A stretch of 64,000 nucleotides of DNA, taken from Fibrobacter sp. (GTDB taxonomy: Bacteria; Fibrobacterota; Chitinivibrionia; Chitinivibrionales; Chitinispirillaceae). This document shows, one piece after another, positions 34,545 to 43,906 of the stretch. The stretch is from NCBI GenBank assembly GCA_012519985.1, contig JAAYPC010000079.1, positions 1 through 64,000 on the forward strand, written 5' to 3'. The notes beneath the pieces are model-generated. The model ran no database searches, was not told where the DNA came from, and saw only the letters and a program-made list of their open reading frames with translations. The translations under genes and the position numbers were made by a program. Within the stretch, counting starts at the first letter, position 1, and each line of letters opens with the position of its first letter.

Positions 34545-34639
34545 CGTTTTTTTCTCTCTTCTCTTTGCAGTAATTAAAGCAATTGCTCTACCATGGCACT
34601 TCTGTTGCTTTTAGACTCTTAGCGGAGGAGGTGAAGAGG

Positions 34640-36910
34640 ATGAGGTTGAAATGGTTTCCATGGCAATTCATGGTTAAGCAGGTTGCCCGCTCAAAAGGTT
34701 TTATTGATCCAATACTTCTTCTTTCTCATTTCAACCGCTTTGCGCAGCCTTCCGAAGTTTGGGCGCCAGTGGAGCTTTTGCGCGCTGGAACCGTTCTGCA
34801 TGCAAGGGGTTTGATAAACAGCCAGGTAATCCAACATAATATGGACTGGGTATGGCCTTACTGGGTAGAGCGTCAGTTTGATCCTGAAGACAAATCTTTT
34901 ATTCCCAGGGCATTCTCACTTACCCAGATTAACCTTACTCACCGAAACTGGACTGCTGTTGGGATACCTGGATACCAGGAATTACCGGTGGTTGATCCCC
35001 GGGGACTGGTAATGCCTTTTTTTGACAGTTGGTCTATTGACAGTTGGATTGTGCTGCCAGATGGCGGACGCCTTATTCCTTCAAGAGAGAAAAAGGTGCA
35101 GCAAAAGGTCCAATGGACAGACTCTCTTTCTGTGCTGACAAAATCAGAAAATGATAAGATACAGTTAGAATCAGAAGTCAAAGTGATTCTGGAAAATGGA
35201 ATACCGGTTTGCAGAATCTATTTAAAGGCGATGGCTTTATCCGATGGTTATCTGATAATAGCTTTGCGGCCATACAATCCCGAAGGTGTCAGTTTTATTA
35301 ACAGAATAGAGCTGCTGAAAAAAACTTACGGGTGGTTTATCGATAGAAAATATCTGGTTTTTTTCGATGAAAAGCCTGAAAAAAACCGTTTTTCCCATTA
35401 TCGGAAAGGCGATGTATATCATTGGATATTTTCTCCTATCAATGATAAACAAAGTGGGGTCCAGTGTGAAGTGGGGATGGCAACAGCTCTGGCAGCATTT
35501 TCCATTAAGGCCGGAGAACAGCGCTATACTGCAATCAGTATACCTCTTGAAAAAGGGAAAAAACTACAGTCGATCTATCCATTAACCAAAACCGCTCATC
35601 AGGTTTGGCAGGAAGCTTACGAGGGATGTTGTCAGATTCATCTTCCTTATCGAAATTTCGAGTATCTCTACGAAACTGCAATCAGAACCTTACTTCTGCA
35701 CACGCCCAGAGAATCCTATGCCGGTCCTTACACTTATAAACGTTTCTGGTTCAGGGATGCTGCTTTTATAGTAAAAGCCCTTTTGTGTACATCAAAAATC
35801 GAAAGGGCAGCACGCATAATTAATACTTTTTTTGAAAAACAGAATTCTGATGGTTACTTTCTTTCTCAGGATGGGGAGTGGGATTCCAATGGAGAAGCTC
35901 TGTGGGCCATGCAACAGTATTGTCTTTTCAGCGGTAAAAAGCCGCCATATCGATGGAAAGACAGCGTGATGAGAGCTGCAGAGTGGATCATTAACAAAAG
36001 AGTGAAAACTGAAGATAAGCTCATATACAATGGTTTATTACCATCTGGTTTCAGTGCTGAACATCTGGGACCTAACGACTTTTACTTTTGGGATGATTTC
36101 TGGGGGGTAGCCGGATTAAATGCTGCCGCTTATATGGCCAGGCAATGGGAGGAGCATCGTAGGGCAGAAAGTTTTGAGAACGAATCTAGAGACTTCATGG
36201 ATGCGATTGTCAGTTGTTTACAGAAAGTAGCAGGAAAGATGCGAAAGCCGGTTATGCCTGCATCACCTTACAGAAGGCCAGACAGTGGAGCAGTGGGATC
36301 TTTGGCTGCGGGTTATCCGCTGCAGCTTTGGGCTGAAAAAAACGACAGGTTATTGCTTACCGCAGATCACCTTTTCAATCACTGCCTGATTAATAATGGC
36401 TTCTACCACGACATAAGCCACTCCGGAATTAATCCATATCTAACATTGCACATAGCCCAGGTGCTTATGCGTGCAGGAGATATCCGGTTTAGAAGGCTCA
36501 CTGAAGCGATTGCAGAAATGGCTTCACCAACAGCACAGTGGCCTGAGGCGATTCATCCCAGATTAAAAAGTGGTTGTATGGGTGATGGACAGCATGTCTG
36601 GGCTGCATCCGAATGGATTCTTATGGTGCGTAACAGCTTTATCAGAGAGGAGAGAGAGCGTAATACCCTGGTGTTGTGTTCCGGAATTTATAAGGAGATA
36701 ACCGATTCTGCAGACATTATAAGTTTCGGTCCTGCGCTTAGCTCTTTTGGCTCTGTTTCTATTCAGATAACCAGAGACAAGGGAAAGTTGAAAGTACATT
36801 GGGATGGAAAATGGCACCAGGGGGAAAAACCGGAGATAGAGATCGCCTTTCCCGAGAAAGCTGTGATTAAAGTTGAACCAGGAAAACAGATCTGCCATGT
36901 TCCGGATTAA
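34640..36910 (+). CDS. Six-hairpin glycoside hydrolase (amylo-alpha-1,6-glucosidase/GH15-like)
   Basis: Purine-rich RBS before ATG 34640. TYKRFWFRDAAFIVKALLCTSKIERAARIINTFFEKQNSDGYFLSQDGEWDSNGEALWAMQQY, and DDFWGVAGLNAAAYMAR. Confidence 0.7.
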   Translation: MRLKWFPWQFMVKQVARSKGFIDPILLLSHFNRFAQPSEVWAPVELLRAGTVLHARGLINSQVIQHNMDWVWPYWVERQFDPEDKSFIPRAFSLTQINLTHRNWTAVGIPGYQELPVVDPRGLVMPFFDSWSIDSWIVLPDGGRLIPSREKKVQQKVQWTDSLSVLTKSENDKIQLESEVKVILENGIPVCRIYLKAMALSDGYLIIALRPYNPEGVSFINRIELLKKTYGWFIDRKYLVFFDEKPEKNRFSHYRKGDVYHWIFSPINDKQSGVQCEVGMATALAAFSIKAGEQRYTAISIPLEKGKKLQSIYPLTKTAHQVWQEAYEGCCQIHLPYRNFEYLYETAIRTLLLHTPRESYAGPYTYKRFWFRDAAFIVKALLCTSKIERAARIINTFFEKQNSDGYFLSQDGEWDSNGEALWAMQQYCLFSGKKPPYRWKDSVMRAAEWIINKRVKTEDKLIYNGLLPSGFSAEHLGPNDFYFWDDFWGVAGLNAAAYMARQWEEHRRAESFENESRDFMDAIVSCLQKVAGKMRKPVMPASPYRRPDSGAVGSLAAGYPLQLWAEKNDRLLLTADHLFNHCLINNGFYHDISHSGINPYLTLHIAQVLMRAGDIRFRRLTEAIAEMASPTAQWPEAIHPRLKSGCMGDGQHVWAASEWILMVRNSFIREERERNTLVLCSGIYKEITDSADIISFGPALSSFGSVSIQITRDKGKLKVHWDGKWHQGEKPEIEIAFPEKAVIKVEPGKQICHVPD

Positions 36911-36946: not shown

Positions 36947-38215
36947 GTGAATATTTTAATGATAACTAACACCTATTTGCCATTTATTGGTGGGGTTGAA
37001 AGATCAGTTAAAATATTTACTGAAGAGTATCGCAGAATGGGGCACAAGGTAATAATAGTAGCTCCCAGTTTTGAAAACATGCCCACAGATGAAACGGATG
37101 TAATCAGGGTGCCGGCATTGCAGAATTTTAATGGTACCGATTTTTCTGTTCAGCTCCCCATCCCAGGAATCTTGCATAATGCCTTAAAGGATTTTCATCC
37201 GGATATTGTTCACTCTCATCATCCATTTCTGATGGGAGATTCGGCTCTGCGGGTAGCTGCTCAGTTTAAGGTACCAATAGTGTTTACTTTTCACACTTTC
37301 TATGAACGCTACACTCATTATGTCCCTGGTGATTCTCCGGCTTTAAAGCGTTTTGTGATAGCATTGGCCACAGGGTATGCAAATCTGTGCGACCATGTGT
37401 TTGCTCCCAGTAACAGTGTGGCTGATGTGTTGATTAAACGGGGAGTAAATACACCGGTGGATGTAGTTCCTACCGGTATCGAACTCGAGGAGTTTGCCAA
37501 AGGTGATGGTCTGAGATTTCGTAAAGCAATGGGGATTCCCTTAAAGGCATTCGTAATTGGATTTGTAAGCAGGATAGCTCCTGAAAAAAATGTGCGGTAT
37601 CTTGGAGAGGTGGTATGCAGATTTCTTCGCAGCAATGAAAATACCTGTTTTTTGATGATCGGTAAGGGACCTTCAGAAGATTATATCAAGGATATTTTCC
37701 ACAAATACAATCTTTTTCATCGATTTTTTCATCCTGGCACCCTGGTTTCTCAACCCCTGATAGATGCTTACCATGCGATGGATGTCTTTGTTTTTGCTTC
37801 CAGAACAGAGACTCAGGGATTGGTGGTTACCGAAGCGTTGGCTTCAGGTGTACCGGTAGTAGCGGTGGATGGACCGGGGATAGGAGAAATAGTCATGGAT
37901 TATACCAACGGAAGGTTGCTCAAAAATTACGATCCAGATGCATTTTGCGATGCACTCCTTTGGGTTTACAGATTAAGTAACCAGAAGAAACGTCAGTTAA
38001 AGAAAGACGCAAGATTATCGGTATTGTCGTATTCCAAAGATATCTGTGCTGCAAAAGCTCTGGACATCTATATGTCATTATTAACCAGAAATCTTATGGT
38101 ACGCGATCATCTGGATAGCGCATGGGAAAAAACCAAAAGGCTTATAAAAGCAGAATTTGAGCTTTTACGGAATATGAAAAGAGCCACTGATGCTGCAATT
38201 AATGATAATGAGTGA
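36947..38215 (+). CDS. Glycosyltransferase family 4 (GT-B)
   Basis: MITNTYLPFIGGVERSVKIFTEEYRRMGHKV; ...FASRTETQGLVVTEALASGVPVVAVDGPGIGEIV. Confidence 0.92.
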   Translation: MNILMITNTYLPFIGGVERSVKIFTEEYRRMGHKVIIVAPSFENMPTDETDVIRVPALQNFNGTDFSVQLPIPGILHNALKDFHPDIVHSHHPFLMGDSALRVAAQFKVPIVFTFHTFYERYTHYVPGDSPALKRFVIALATGYANLCDHVFAPSNSVADVLIKRGVNTPVDVVPTGIELEEFAKGDGLRFRKAMGIPLKAFVIGFVSRIAPEKNVRYLGEVVCRFLRSNENTCFLMIGKGPSEDYIKDIFHKYNLFHRFFHPGTLVSQPLIDAYHAMDVFVFASRTETQGLVVTEALASGVPVVAVDGPGIGEIVMDYTNGRLLKNYDPDAFCDALLWVYRLSNQKKRQLKKDARLSVLSYSKDICAAKALDIYMSLLTRNLMVRDHLDSAWEKTKRLIKAEFELLRNMKRATDAAINDNE

Positions 38216-38246: not shown

Positions 38247-40415
38247 GTGAGAGCTTTCTGGAATAAAAACGGAAAAACCGGTCTGATTGATCCCTCACCT
38301 GAGATTACAAATAAAAGCCCGTCTGCAGGCCAGATGGCTCCACCTGTCAGGTTGACTCTGGAGGAGCTTTGCTGCAGATTCAGTCCAGAAAGTCTGAGTT
38401 TTGACACGACAGCCAACCTACCTGTAAAGCACTTATCTGTAGGCCAGGAAAGAGCAGTCAAGGCCATATCGTTTGGACTAAAAATTAAGAGCAGGGGTTT
38501 CAATGTATTCGCTTCAGGACTGGCTGGTACAGGTAAAGATAGCGCAATACTTCAGGAATTAAACTCAATTGCCAGATCTGAACCAGTTCCAGAAGATATC
38601 TGCTATGTTTATAATCATAAAAACCCCCACTCACCGAAACTTCTCTATTTCCCTGCAGGTTTGGGTAGAAAATTTAAATGTGAAATAAAGGAATTGCTTA
38701 GAAAGACTGCAGAACTTTTTCAAAAATACTATCAGAGCGATTACTCGCAGCTACTGGTTTTGTTAGATGGCTTGTTCGGAGAGATGGCACAGAGGTTCAG
38801 TACTATCAAAGGACTATCCGATTATCTTATCGGTCTAAAGGAGGATTTATTCAAAAATATAGGAAAACACAAGCCTGATGATTCTTCAAATAAATTTAGC
38901 TTTTTGGTGGCTCCTGAGAAATATGAGGTAAACTTACTGGTCGATAACAGTGAAACAACTGGCGCACCTGTGGTAGTCGAGCGTAATCCGTCATACAGCA
39001 ATCTTTTTGGATATATCCAATACAGAGTAGAGAATTCTTTTGTAGTTGCTGATCACCTCTGTTTGCAGGCAGGTTCTGTTCACAGAGCCAGAGGAGGTTA
39101 TCTGATATTGGAAGTAGAAGAGATTCTGGGAGATTTACATGCATGGAATGCACTAAAAAAGCTGTTACGTCATGGACATACCAATATAGAATACAGTCCT
39201 GAAAGAACATCCATGTTCCCAGGAGTTTTTCTTAAGCCTGAACCAATATCTATTGATTTAAAGGTGATTCTAACCGGAGATCCTGTATTTTATCAGACTC
39301 TTTACAATAACGATGATGAGTTTGTAAGAATATTTAAAGTAAAGGCAGACTTTGCCGAGCAGTTGAGTAAAACCGAAGAAAACATAGATGGGCTGGTTTC
39401 TTTTATAGCCAGAATCTGTAATGAGGAAAATCTCAGACATTGTGATAGAACGGCTGTAGCCCGGATTATCGATTACAGCTCTCGTCTTGCAGAGCACAAG
39501 CATCGTCTGAGTGCTCAGTTCGAAAAGATCGCAGATCTTCTGAGAGAAGCCGATTTCCATGCCGGTCAAAATGAATGTTCCTTTATTACAGGAGAACATA
39601 TAGTATTGGCTTGCGAAGCCTTGAAGTATAGATGCAGCACGATGGAGGAAAAAATATATGGTCTCATCGAAGACAGTACTCTTTATCTGGATACAACAGG
39701 ATGGGAAACAGGACAGGTGAACGGTGTTTCTATCGTAAACAATGGAGATTATGTATTCGGAGTGCCATCGAGAATTACTGCCAGGACATTTATAGGTGCT
39801 GGCAACATTATCAATATTGAGCGGGAAGCTGAGATGAGTGGAAAAATCCACGCCAAGGGAGTTCTGATTCTAAGTGGATATCTGGGACAGACTTATGCCC
39901 AGGATAAACCTCTGGCGTTATCAGCCAGCATCTGTTTTGAACAACACTACGAAGAAATTGATGGTGATAGTGCTTCAAGTGCAGAACTGTATTGTCTCAT
40001 GTCCAGCCTCTCCGGTCTACCGCTTCGTCAGGACATTGCAGTTACCGGTTCTGTTGACCAGAGAGGTATGATTCAACCGGTGGGTGGAATCAATACAAAA
40101 ATTGAAGGCTTTTTCAAGGCATGTCAATTAAAGGGGCTAAGCGGTACCCAGGGAATGATTATTCCTAAAGATAATGTTAAAAATCTTATGCTTTCCGATG
40201 AAATCCTGGAAGCTGTCAAAAAGAACATGTTTCATATATATGCAGTTTCTACAATAGAGCAGGGATTGCAGATACTTACGGGTAAAGATCCGGGAAAAAT
40301 CTCCAGTGATGGCTCTTTTCAACCAGATACAATCCATTTTCTGGTCAATCAGAAATTGCGTGATTATGCTTCTGTTGTAGACAGTTACGAGAAGGAGAAA
40401 GACCAGTATCTTTAG
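38247..40415 (+). CDS. LonB/YcbZ-like ATP-dependent S16 protease
   Basis: GTG start; Walker A GLAGTGKDS; S16 Ser motif DGDSASSAELYCLMSSLSGLPLRQDIAVTGSVDQRGMIQPVGGINTKIEGFF with catalytic Lys context. Confidence 0.88.
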   Translation: MRAFWNKNGKTGLIDPSPEITNKSPSAGQMAPPVRLTLEELCCRFSPESLSFDTTANLPVKHLSVGQERAVKAISFGLKIKSRGFNVFASGLAGTGKDSAILQELNSIARSEPVPEDICYVYNHKNPHSPKLLYFPAGLGRKFKCEIKELLRKTAELFQKYYQSDYSQLLVLLDGLFGEMAQRFSTIKGLSDYLIGLKEDLFKNIGKHKPDDSSNKFSFLVAPEKYEVNLLVDNSETTGAPVVVERNPSYSNLFGYIQYRVENSFVVADHLCLQAGSVHRARGGYLILEVEEILGDLHAWNALKKLLRHGHTNIEYSPERTSMFPGVFLKPEPISIDLKVILTGDPVFYQTLYNNDDEFVRIFKVKADFAEQLSKTEENIDGLVSFIARICNEENLRHCDRTAVARIIDYSSRLAEHKHRLSAQFEKIADLLREADFHAGQNECSFITGEHIVLACEALKYRCSTMEEKIYGLIEDSTLYLDTTGWETGQVNGVSIVNNGDYVFGVPSRITARTFIGAGNIINIEREAEMSGKIHAKGVLILSGYLGQTYAQDKPLALSASICFEQHYEEIDGDSASSAELYCLMSSLSGLPLRQDIAVTGSVDQRGMIQPVGGINTKIEGFFKACQLKGLSGTQGMIIPKDNVKNLMLSDEILEAVKKNMFHIYAVSTIEQGLQILTGKDPGKISSDGSFQPDTIHFLVNQKLRDYASVVDSYEKEKDQYL

Positions 40416-40465: not shown

Positions 40466-41593
40466 ATGTATATCAACCGAATGTCTTTATTCAGAAATGA
40501 GAGATTTGAATTCTTTATACATGTTCCGCTTATCTGGCAATCTGCAGTAATTTCATGGACTCTGGCTACTGGAATCTTTCCCTATTATTACAAATACCTT
40601 TCCCGGTTTGTTTACTGGTGGATGGGGGTGGCTGCAACTTTGGCACTAATAGCCAGTGTCTTAATGCGTGATACAATCCGCCTTTTGATTTTAAACCGAT
40701 TTGGGACTACTGTGACAAATCTTACTCTGTTTCTTTTTGGTGGTGTTACAGAGTCTTCGGCCAATGCAGATTCGCAAAAAGGAGAGCTTTTTGCGAATCT
40801 GTCTGGCCCAATTATTTATTTTGGTATGGCTTTTTTTGTACATTGTGTAATGATCATCTGCCAGACTCAGAAGCTGCCTCTTGAAATCATTGGAATCGTT
40901 GAGTTTGTCAGAATGATAAATGTAGCACTGGGAGTAATAAACATTTTTCCACTGCTGGTTCTGGATGGAGGTAAGATTGTACTGCTTTTTCTCAGTCGAT
41001 TTTTTGTAAGCTTTAAGAAAGCTGTTGCTTTTTTGGCAGAGATAACAAATGTGGTCGCTTTGTTGATTATGGCAGCGGGATTATTTGTAAGTATAAAGGG
41101 GTATTTTCAGGGAGGTTTATGGTGGATTTTGATTGGCATGTATCTGCAGGAGGGGACTGCGCTTTTTCAAAGAAAACACCAGATACGGGAAATATTGAAT
41201 AGTGAAACTGCAGAGAGAGTTATGAGAAGAGATCCTGTCTCTGTGCGATCTGGTCTTTCCATTATAGATTTCGTACAGAATTATCTTTATGATTTCCATT
41301 ATAAAATATTTCCAGTCTTAGGTTACGATCTTAAATTACAAGGTATATTGTTATCCAGAAAGGTGTTCGACCTGTCCTGTCAGCAGTGGAAAGAGCATAC
41401 AGTAAATGAGATCGCTGTATCACAATTATCAGAACTGACAGTAGATATAAACGAAAACATTTTATCGGTTCTTACCCACATGAAGAGAACTGGCCAAAGT
41501 AGATTAGTGGTAATTGATGGTGAGAAAAAACCAAAAGGAACAATAGTGCTCAAGGATATTTTAAAGTACCTTTCAGAAAAAATGAATCTTTAA
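40466..41593 (+). CDS. Site-2 protease (M50B)-like membrane protein with CBS domains; catalytic HExxH apparently lost
   Basis: SVLMRDTIRLLILNRFGTTVTNLTLFLFGGVTE aligns by position with S2P HELGHxxxARRxGI...LFPFGGVAE; ANLSGPIIYF (LAGP); IFPLLVLDGGKIVLL (PLDGGR). C-terminal CBS pair. Confidence 0.8.
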   Translation: MYINRMSLFRNERFEFFIHVPLIWQSAVISWTLATGIFPYYYKYLSRFVYWWMGVAATLALIASVLMRDTIRLLILNRFGTTVTNLTLFLFGGVTESSANADSQKGELFANLSGPIIYFGMAFFVHCVMIICQTQKLPLEIIGIVEFVRMINVALGVINIFPLLVLDGGKIVLLFLSRFFVSFKKAVAFLAEITNVVALLIMAAGLFVSIKGYFQGGLWWILIGMYLQEGTALFQRKHQIREILNSETAERVMRRDPVSVRSGLSIIDFVQNYLYDFHYKIFPVLGYDLKLQGILLSRKVFDLSCQQWKEHTVNEIAVSQLSELTVDINENILSVLTHMKRTGQSRLVVIDGEKKPKGTIVLKDILKYLSEKMNL

Positions 41594-41680: not shown

Positions 41681-43906
41681 ATGTCTATAAAACCATTTAA
41701 AGTATGGCCTGGAAAGGCATATCCTCTGGGAGCTACCTGGGATGGGGCAGGAGTAAATTTCGCATTGTTTTCTGAGAACGCCACTGGGGTAACTCTGTGT
41801 TTGTTTGATGATACCAATGATGAAAAGGAGATCGCATCAATTGATATTAAAGAGCAAACCGATCAGGTCTGGAGTGTATATCTGCCTCAGGCAAGACCAG
41901 GAATTCGATATGGCTATCGGGTAAAAGGACCTTATGAACCTTCACAGGGACACAGGTTTAATCCTGCAAAACTGCTTTTAGATCCTTATGCAAAGGCCAT
42001 TGATGGAACCATAAAATGGAATGATGCTCTTTTTGGTTATGTGATTGGTGGGAAAGAGACTGATCTGACAAAAGATGAACGGGACAGTGCTCCGTTTCTT
42101 CCAAAATCGGTAGTGGTAGATCCTGCTTTCAGTTGGGGTGATGACAGCAGGCCTCAGATTCCATGGCACAAAACGGTAATTTACGAACTGCATGTAAAGG
42201 GGTTCACTGCACTGCATCCCGATGTCCCCAAAGAGTTGAGAGCTACTTATGCCGGATTAACAAGTCCATCTGTGATTGAATATTTCCATTCGCTGGGAAT
42301 TACTGCTGTTGAGTTAATGCCGGTGCACCAGTTTATTGATGATCGCACATTGATAGAGAAAAATCTCAGAAATTATTGGGGGTATAATTCAATAGGGTTT
42401 TTTGCTCCGGATGCCAGGTATTCATGCTCCGGCTCTTTAGGACAACAGGTAAATGAGTTTAAAACAATGGTAAAGACACTGCACAGGGAGGGTATAGAGG
42501 TAATTTTGGATGTAGTGTACAATCACACTGCAGAAGGAAATCATCTGGGGCCAACACTTTGTTTCAGGGGAATCGACAATTCCAGCTATTATAATCTGAG
42601 TCCCGAAAAAAGATATTATATGGATTACACTGGTTGCGGCAATACTCTGAATGTGACCCATCAGTATGTGTTGCAATTAATAATGGACAGTCTGAGATAT
42701 TGGGTTACTGAAATGCATGTTGATGGATTCCGGTTCGATCTTGCCGCAACCCTGGCGCGGGAGCTTCATGATGTAAACAGGTTGGGAACTTTCTTTGCGG
42801 TAATTCATCAGGACCCTGTTTTGTCACAGGTAAAACTCATTGCTGAACCATGGGACCTGGGGCCGGGAGGTTATCTGGTAGGTAATTTCCCGATACTCTG
42901 GGCTGAATGGAATGGTAAATTCAGGGATACGGTGAGAAGGTTCTGGAAGAGTGATCCAGGGCAGGCTGGTGATCTTGCATACCGGCTTACAGGCAGCTCT
43001 GATCTTTACGAAAGCGGAGGAAGGCGGCCTTATGCCAGCATAAATTTTGTGACCGCTCATGATGGGTTTACTTTAAACGATCTGGTAAGTTATAACCAGA
43101 AGCATAATGAAGCCAATAAGGAGGACAACCGGGATGGAACTAATGATAATCTGTCATGGAATTGCGGAGTAGAGGGACCTACCACCGATGAAAACATTTT
43201 GAATGTACGGGAAAGACAGAAAAGAAATTTCCTGGCTACGCTTCTTCTTTCTCAGGGTGTACCAATGATCACTGCCGGTGATGAGTTTGGCAGAACTCAG
43301 GGAGGAAATAACAATGCCTACTGTCAGGATAATGAGATCTCCTGGGTAAACTGGGACATGACTGAAAAAAACAATGAGCTGCTTCAGTTTACCCGGTTTT
43401 TGCTCAGATTCTTTCATGAGCATCCTATTCTTCAGAGAAGGAGATTTTTTAACGGCCGAGACACCAGGCAAACAGGAATTAAAGACCTGACCTGGTTCCA
43501 TCCTGATGGGCATGAGATGACTGAGGCAGACTGGAATAACTCCCAGATTCGTTTTTTGGGATTAAGACTGGCAGGTGATGCTATAGAGGAGATGGATGAG
43601 CATGGAGAACCGATTACCGATGATACCATTCTTATTCTGCTCAATGGCCACTATGAACCCATTAATTTTGTTTTGCCGGAGTGTCCTGCTTTTGAGCGCT
43701 GGAGACTCATTATGGATACCAGAGAATCTAAAATTCCTCAAGTCCCTATACATTTCGACCCAAAATCCATTTTTAAAATGGAAAGCCGTTCTGTTGCTTT
43801 ATTTGTCCTCCCTCACACAGTTGGCAAAACTGAACTGCAGATTAAAGTCATGGAAAGCACGCTACAGAAGATTCGAAAATTTCTTTTCCCTTCCAAAAAA
43901 AAATGA
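41681..43906 (+). CDS. glgX: Glycogen debranching enzyme GlgX (GH13_11-like)
   Basis: [104 protein letters not shown]. Confidence 0.95.

Follow-up and report, generated by a model that had tools for sequence, protein, structure and literature searches.

Can a member of the site-2 protease (S2P) family that has lost its defining catalytic motif still be a working protein, and what would be left for it to do? The question is raised by a gene at 40466..41593 (plus strand) of the window, by which we mean the whole stretch of 64,000 nucleotides analyzed here (contig JAAYPC010000079.1, assembly GCA_012519985.1, Fibrobacter sp.). A reading made from the letters without database searches (the sequence-only reading) had described its product as an S2P scaffold in the usual order, followed by a CBS pair, in which RDTIR stands at the HELGH position, and had proposed a pseudoprotease. 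Our analysis supports both the scaffold and the substitution and suggests that the gene most likely encodes a lineage-specific dead protease kept for binding or regulation and is not an enzyme of a novel type.

An S2P fold without HExxH

The gene forms an intact frame from an ATG at 40466 to a stop codon at 41591-41593 and encodes a 375-aa protein which, by its ORF, Pfam matches, and fold, is an S2P-CBS homolog (M50B, group III-like) without HExxH. Pfam matched Peptidase_M50 at residues 131-188 (38.4 bits; cutoff, 27.2) and CBS at residues 324-370 (44.3 bits), and PDZ gave no Pfam match in the protein; the minus strand of 40466-41593 carries stops throughout, and promoter and terminator scans returned site numbers not above those of shuffled sequences. 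AlphaFold2, run with a 29-row alignment, predicted an S2P fold (mean pLDDT, 90.1; pTM, 0.76), for which the best PDB match by Foldseek was 3b4r, the S2P of M. jannaschii (E value, 6.9e-9; TM score, 0.78, normalized to the target), with SpoIVFB (8vjl) also among the matches. The first CBS domain, missed by Pfam, is present in the model, and CBS-pair structures were matched over 120-143 columns; the pair covers approximately residues 247-375 (41204..41590, plus strand). By descent and predicted fold the protein is an S2P; as a member by descent that lacks the defining catalytic motif, it should therefore not be classified among the peptidases.

The family profile places the zinc helix of 3b4r on residues 68 to 72, where the codons CGT GAT ACA ATC CGC (40667..40681, plus strand) encode R68-D69-T70-I71-R72, and both the codons and the alignment of relatives (A2) confirm that the two histidines and the glutamate are gone. 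The protein keeps LTLFLFGGVTE, NLSGP, the invariant asparagine upstream of LDG identified in the alignment (N152; 40919..40921, plus strand), and the LDG motif itself (L166-D167-G168-G169; 40961..40972, plus strand) with its aspartate, the third zinc ligand; the motif reads FPLLVLDGG in place of the usual PAFPLDGGR, so that Pro165 has been lost to valine.

Alignment A2 comprises 29 rows of relatives from the same phylum, of which at least 90% carry H68, E69, and H72. HExxH, aligned without gaps, is present in 27 of the 29 rows; the two exceptions, the RDTIR protein and a paralog with HVTGH, both belong to the genome studied here. Eleven positions (G92, G114, P115, N152, P162, D167, G217, P283, V284, G358, and D364) are invariant with the RDTIR protein included, and the presence of D167 among them means that the LDG aspartate was kept while both histidine ligands and the glutamate were lost. 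Nine of the 30 columns conserved in the other rows are lost, the highest loss of any row; all nine, the three catalytic positions among them, lie in the membrane domain, and the conserved CBS columns are all retained. Neighbors of the active site and TM1 residues have changed as well (S21P, W22L, G60A, S118Y, and P165V), a pattern that fits refunctioning and relaxed constraint alike. At the CBS ligand residues ([ST]xxD; alignment A1), CBS2 keeps Asp364 and has valine at the T/S position, and CBS1 has Lys299 where the homologs have aspartate; judged from these residues, nucleotide binding by the pair appears doubtful.

Given established M50 chemistry, the replacements H68R, E69D, and H72R would preclude S2P-type zinc binding and peptide bond cleavage; catalysis has very likely been lost, and intramembrane cleavage by this protein would be expected to be absent. 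Cleavage could in principle persist if a metal were bound in a rearranged site by D69 and D167 together with a further residue, for example H125: D69 preserves the acidic charge of the glutamate, D167 and N152 are kept, and H125 is located in TM3. However, a histidine equivalent to H125 also occurs in homologs with intact HExxH (L027 and L016), indicating that H125 is not compensatory, and arginine at both histidine positions would put positive charges at the metal site. An alternative HExxH elsewhere in the protein, which the sequence-only reading had considered, is likewise excluded because the HE dipeptide does not occur anywhere in the 375 residues. We regard a rearranged metal enzyme as very improbable.

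Intact homologs in a conserved operon

Three genes precede the RDTIR gene on the same strand. The first (34583..36910) encodes a protein of 775 aa that weakly resembles oligosaccharide amylases (GH15-like) and is conserved upstream of the second, a GT4 glycosyltransferase gene (36947..38215) that served as the synteny anchor and whose product is 59 to 64% identical to its homologs. The 775-aa protein has no Pfam match, and its gene immediately precedes the GT4 gene in 10 of 10 relatives' loci examined. The third (38247..40415) encodes a LonB/LonC-like S16 protease of 722 aa, whose S16 Ser and Lys motifs are retained, in agreement with the sequence-only reading; that reading did not mention that approximately 100 internal residues found in the syntenic Lon-like homologs are missing here or that the Walker A motif reads GTGKD, compared with GTGKS in genome G016 and GTGKN in G010. 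Downstream, the neighbor in this genome is a gene for the glycogen debranching enzyme GlgX (41681..43906, plus strand).

G010 and G016 share the gene order amylase-like, GT4, Lon-like, S2P, and G008 and G005 have amylase-like, GT4, S2P; all four genomes belong to the Fibrobacterota, and the named matches are MAGs of Chitinispirillales/Chitinivibrionales. Their S2P-CBS proteins resemble the RDTIR protein in following GT4, in two cases after a Lon-like gene, and in falling into one clade with it, but all four, from three other genera, retain HExxH (HELFH, HELSH, HELSH, and HEYVH) together with the aspartate at the LDG position. In the tree, the RDTIR protein groups with these four homologs (support, 85/86) on long branches; when four long-branch rows were removed, it was unresolved near the G010/G016 pair, so that orthology rests mainly on synteny. 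Its identity to the four (28 to 30%) is no lower than the identity among the intact homologs (27 to 32%, apart from a same-genus pair at 49%), and therefore there was no general acceleration of the RDTIR protein.

A second member of the subgroup without HExxH was not found among 24 genomes of the family, 40 of the order, and 168 of the phylum, a sample in which the genus has no further representative, and a contig scan with the RDTIR protein as the query returned no close relative. Because the four syntenic homologs are intact, a clade-wide pseudoprotease, which the sequence-only reading had implied, is not supported, and the loss is known from one MAG.

Two further loci were observed. In a Chitinivibrionales MAG, a canonical S2P-CBS gene adjoins the GT4 gene in convergent orientation (L091:9001-11518), so that S2P and GT4 may have been associated before the present subfamily arose. 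On a contig assigned to Candidatus Jettenia ecosi (Planctomycetota), a GT4 gene (L086:9001-10266) encodes a product 60% identical to the GT4 protein of the window, which is as close as the GT4 proteins within the Fibrobacterota family are to each other; transfer or misbinning could account for it.

Artifact, decay, or retention

The genome (G000) is a MAG of 4.74 Mb in 367 contigs with 5.2% contamination, and an assembly of this kind invites the suspicion that RDTIR is a sequence or assembly artifact. Against this, three distinct codons of the motif have changed over a stretch of 15 bases with the frame intact, the contig is 129,640 bases long, and the order of the operon matches that of four other genomes; contamination, moreover, would not alter orthology. 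For this gene, contamination and misassembly were rejected in view of the conserved operon and the multiple codon changes, and an artifact is very improbable.

Decay deserves more weight. An accessory S2P that had lost its substrate or purpose could drift under weak or no selection, its frame being unbroken so far. The intact syntenic homologs in four genomes, the restriction of RDTIR to one genome, and the loss of nine normally conserved membrane-domain columns would all fit such a course, as would the HVTGH paralog and the shortened Lon-like neighbor, which suggest that accessory proteolysis may be relaxing in this genome; the whole module could be losing importance. Opposed to this are the 375 codons without stop or frameshift, the retention of structural Gly and Pro residues, N152, D167, and the conserved CBS columns, and an identity to the homologs that equals the identity among the intact ones. 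When neutral substitution was simulated from each intact homolog, all three residues were lost before any stop arose with a probability of 0.0005 to 0.001, and approximately 12 stops were expected by the time all three catalytic residues had been lost; the simulation ignored indels, which favors the null. Strict neutral decay is unlikely, although the simulation is compatible with partly relaxed selection. The sequence-only reading had named intact orthologs, with recent decay in this genome only, as an outcome that would count against a pseudoprotease: the intact homologs do exist, but recent neutral decay fits poorly, since the frame is intact, divergence is not raised, and the CBS invariants are kept. 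We consider a decaying gene possible but on the whole unlikely. With the zinc histidines and the glutamate lost, the fold kept, and a frame that does not decay like that of a neutral pseudogene, the proposal of a pseudoprotease is supported, and it is likely that the protein has retained a function.

Other S2P genes of the same genome

The genome contains three S2P-CBS genes, namely, the RDTIR gene, an intact one on contig C260 (HELSH, PLDGGR), and one on contig C19 (HVTGH), in addition to genes for RseP (HELGH) and a small M50 protein (HEFAH). The C19 paralog (G000:C19:6612-7622, minus strand; L003:1498-2571) keeps the zinc histidines and has valine (GTA) in place of the catalytic glutamate; its nearest relatives read HESGH, HETGH, HESGH, and HELGH, and the homologs in G010, G016, G005, and G008 keep HExGH. 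This change amounts to a single base in a MAG, for which an artifact is a stronger explanation than it is for RDTIR. If both RDTIR and HVTGH are real, two of the three S2P-CBS genes of this genome would be noncatalytic. The neighbors of the C19 paralog are genes for a sigma-54 response regulator and a Ser/Thr kinase.

As an intact canonical S2P-CBS is encoded on C260, activity need not vanish from the genome with the RDTIR gene. The C260 gene lies near GalT-like and trehalose-synthase-like (TreT-like) genes; a tie of S2P-CBS genes to storage-carbohydrate operons is suggestive only.

Discussion

The explanation that we favor, and consider probable, is that the RDTIR protein is a lineage-specific S2P pseudoprotease that acts by binding. 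In this Fibrobacterota family, a paralogous S2P-CBS gene may have entered the conserved operon of amylase-like, GT4, and, in some genomes, Lon-like genes; the operon S2P would have stayed a fast-evolving intramembrane metalloprotease with an intact active site in most lineages, and in the present lineage H68R, E69D, and H72R would have replaced both zinc histidines and the catalytic glutamate. Since the membrane fold, the LDG aspartate, the GP and N motifs, and the CBS pair are kept, binding is the most likely mode of action of the protein, which might hold a membrane substrate or partner, or pair with the intact C260 protein as a regulatory or decoy subunit. A response to ligands through the CBS domains, whose binding residues are partly kept, is a speculative addition, as is the idea that D167 may persist because it salt-bridges R68 or R72 in place of the zinc.

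Precedent for binding without cleavage comes from SpoIVFB, in which E44Q in HExxH abolished activity while pro-sigmaK was still bound (PMC11486902); an S2P without catalysis can thus still bind its substrate. A narrower form of the favored explanation is that the RDTIR protein, in an iRhom-like manner, inhibits or tunes the C260 protease, either by forming hetero-oligomers with it or by competing for substrate. The presence of an intact S2P-CBS in the same genome, the position of both genes beside storage-carbohydrate genes (GT4 and GlgX here, TreT-like and GalT-like at C260), and the substrate binding of the E44Q variant would agree with this; the oligomers of SpoIVFB, however, are a likely detergent artifact according to the authors (PMC11486902), and we judge this specific arrangement to be rather unlikely.

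Pseudoproteases are well known among rhomboids, and MEROPS lists nonpeptidase homologs in M50. With group III of M50B, represented by the M. jannaschii S2P (3b4r, which ranked first in PDB by both profile and fold) and SpoIVFB of B. subtilis, the RDTIR protein shares the membrane core, LFLFGGV, GP, N...LDG, and the C-terminal CBS pair, but it lacks HExxH and the proline before LDG. The nearest known kind, compared by description, is EGY3, a chloroplast S2P homolog of plants that is predicted to be inactive and was called the only pseudoenzyme of the family, confined to plants, in 2022 (PMC9355673). Both are S2P-family homologs for which inactivity is predicted, and the RDTIR protein has lost the catalytic residues while keeping the fold; unlike EGY3, which is conserved across plants, the RDTIR protein is bacterial, has CBS domains, occurs in one genome, and has intact homologs. 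The iRhoms, rhomboid pseudoproteases reported to inhibit rhomboid-dependent signaling (PMC3149277), offer a functional analogy in keeping an intramembrane protease fold without catalysis, but their fold and mechanistic class are unrelated.

A bolder extension of the explanation to the genome as a whole, which we judge rather unlikely, is that two of its three S2P-CBS proteins may have become noncatalytic regulators by different routes, one through RDTIR with a possible bridge from arginine to D167 and the other through loss of the glutamate in HVTGH, both working with the remaining active S2P-CBS and forming a bacterial counterpart of iRhoms and EGY3 tied to storage-carbohydrate operons. The case is weakened because only one genome carries RDTIR. 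With plant EGY3 alone named as a pseudoenzyme of the S2P family (PMC9355673), the RDTIR protein would be a bacterial case. A noncatalytic bacterial S2P that has an active paralog and intact homologs would permit the active and inactive forms of a single gene to be compared directly and the role of the S2P fold without zinc to be tested.
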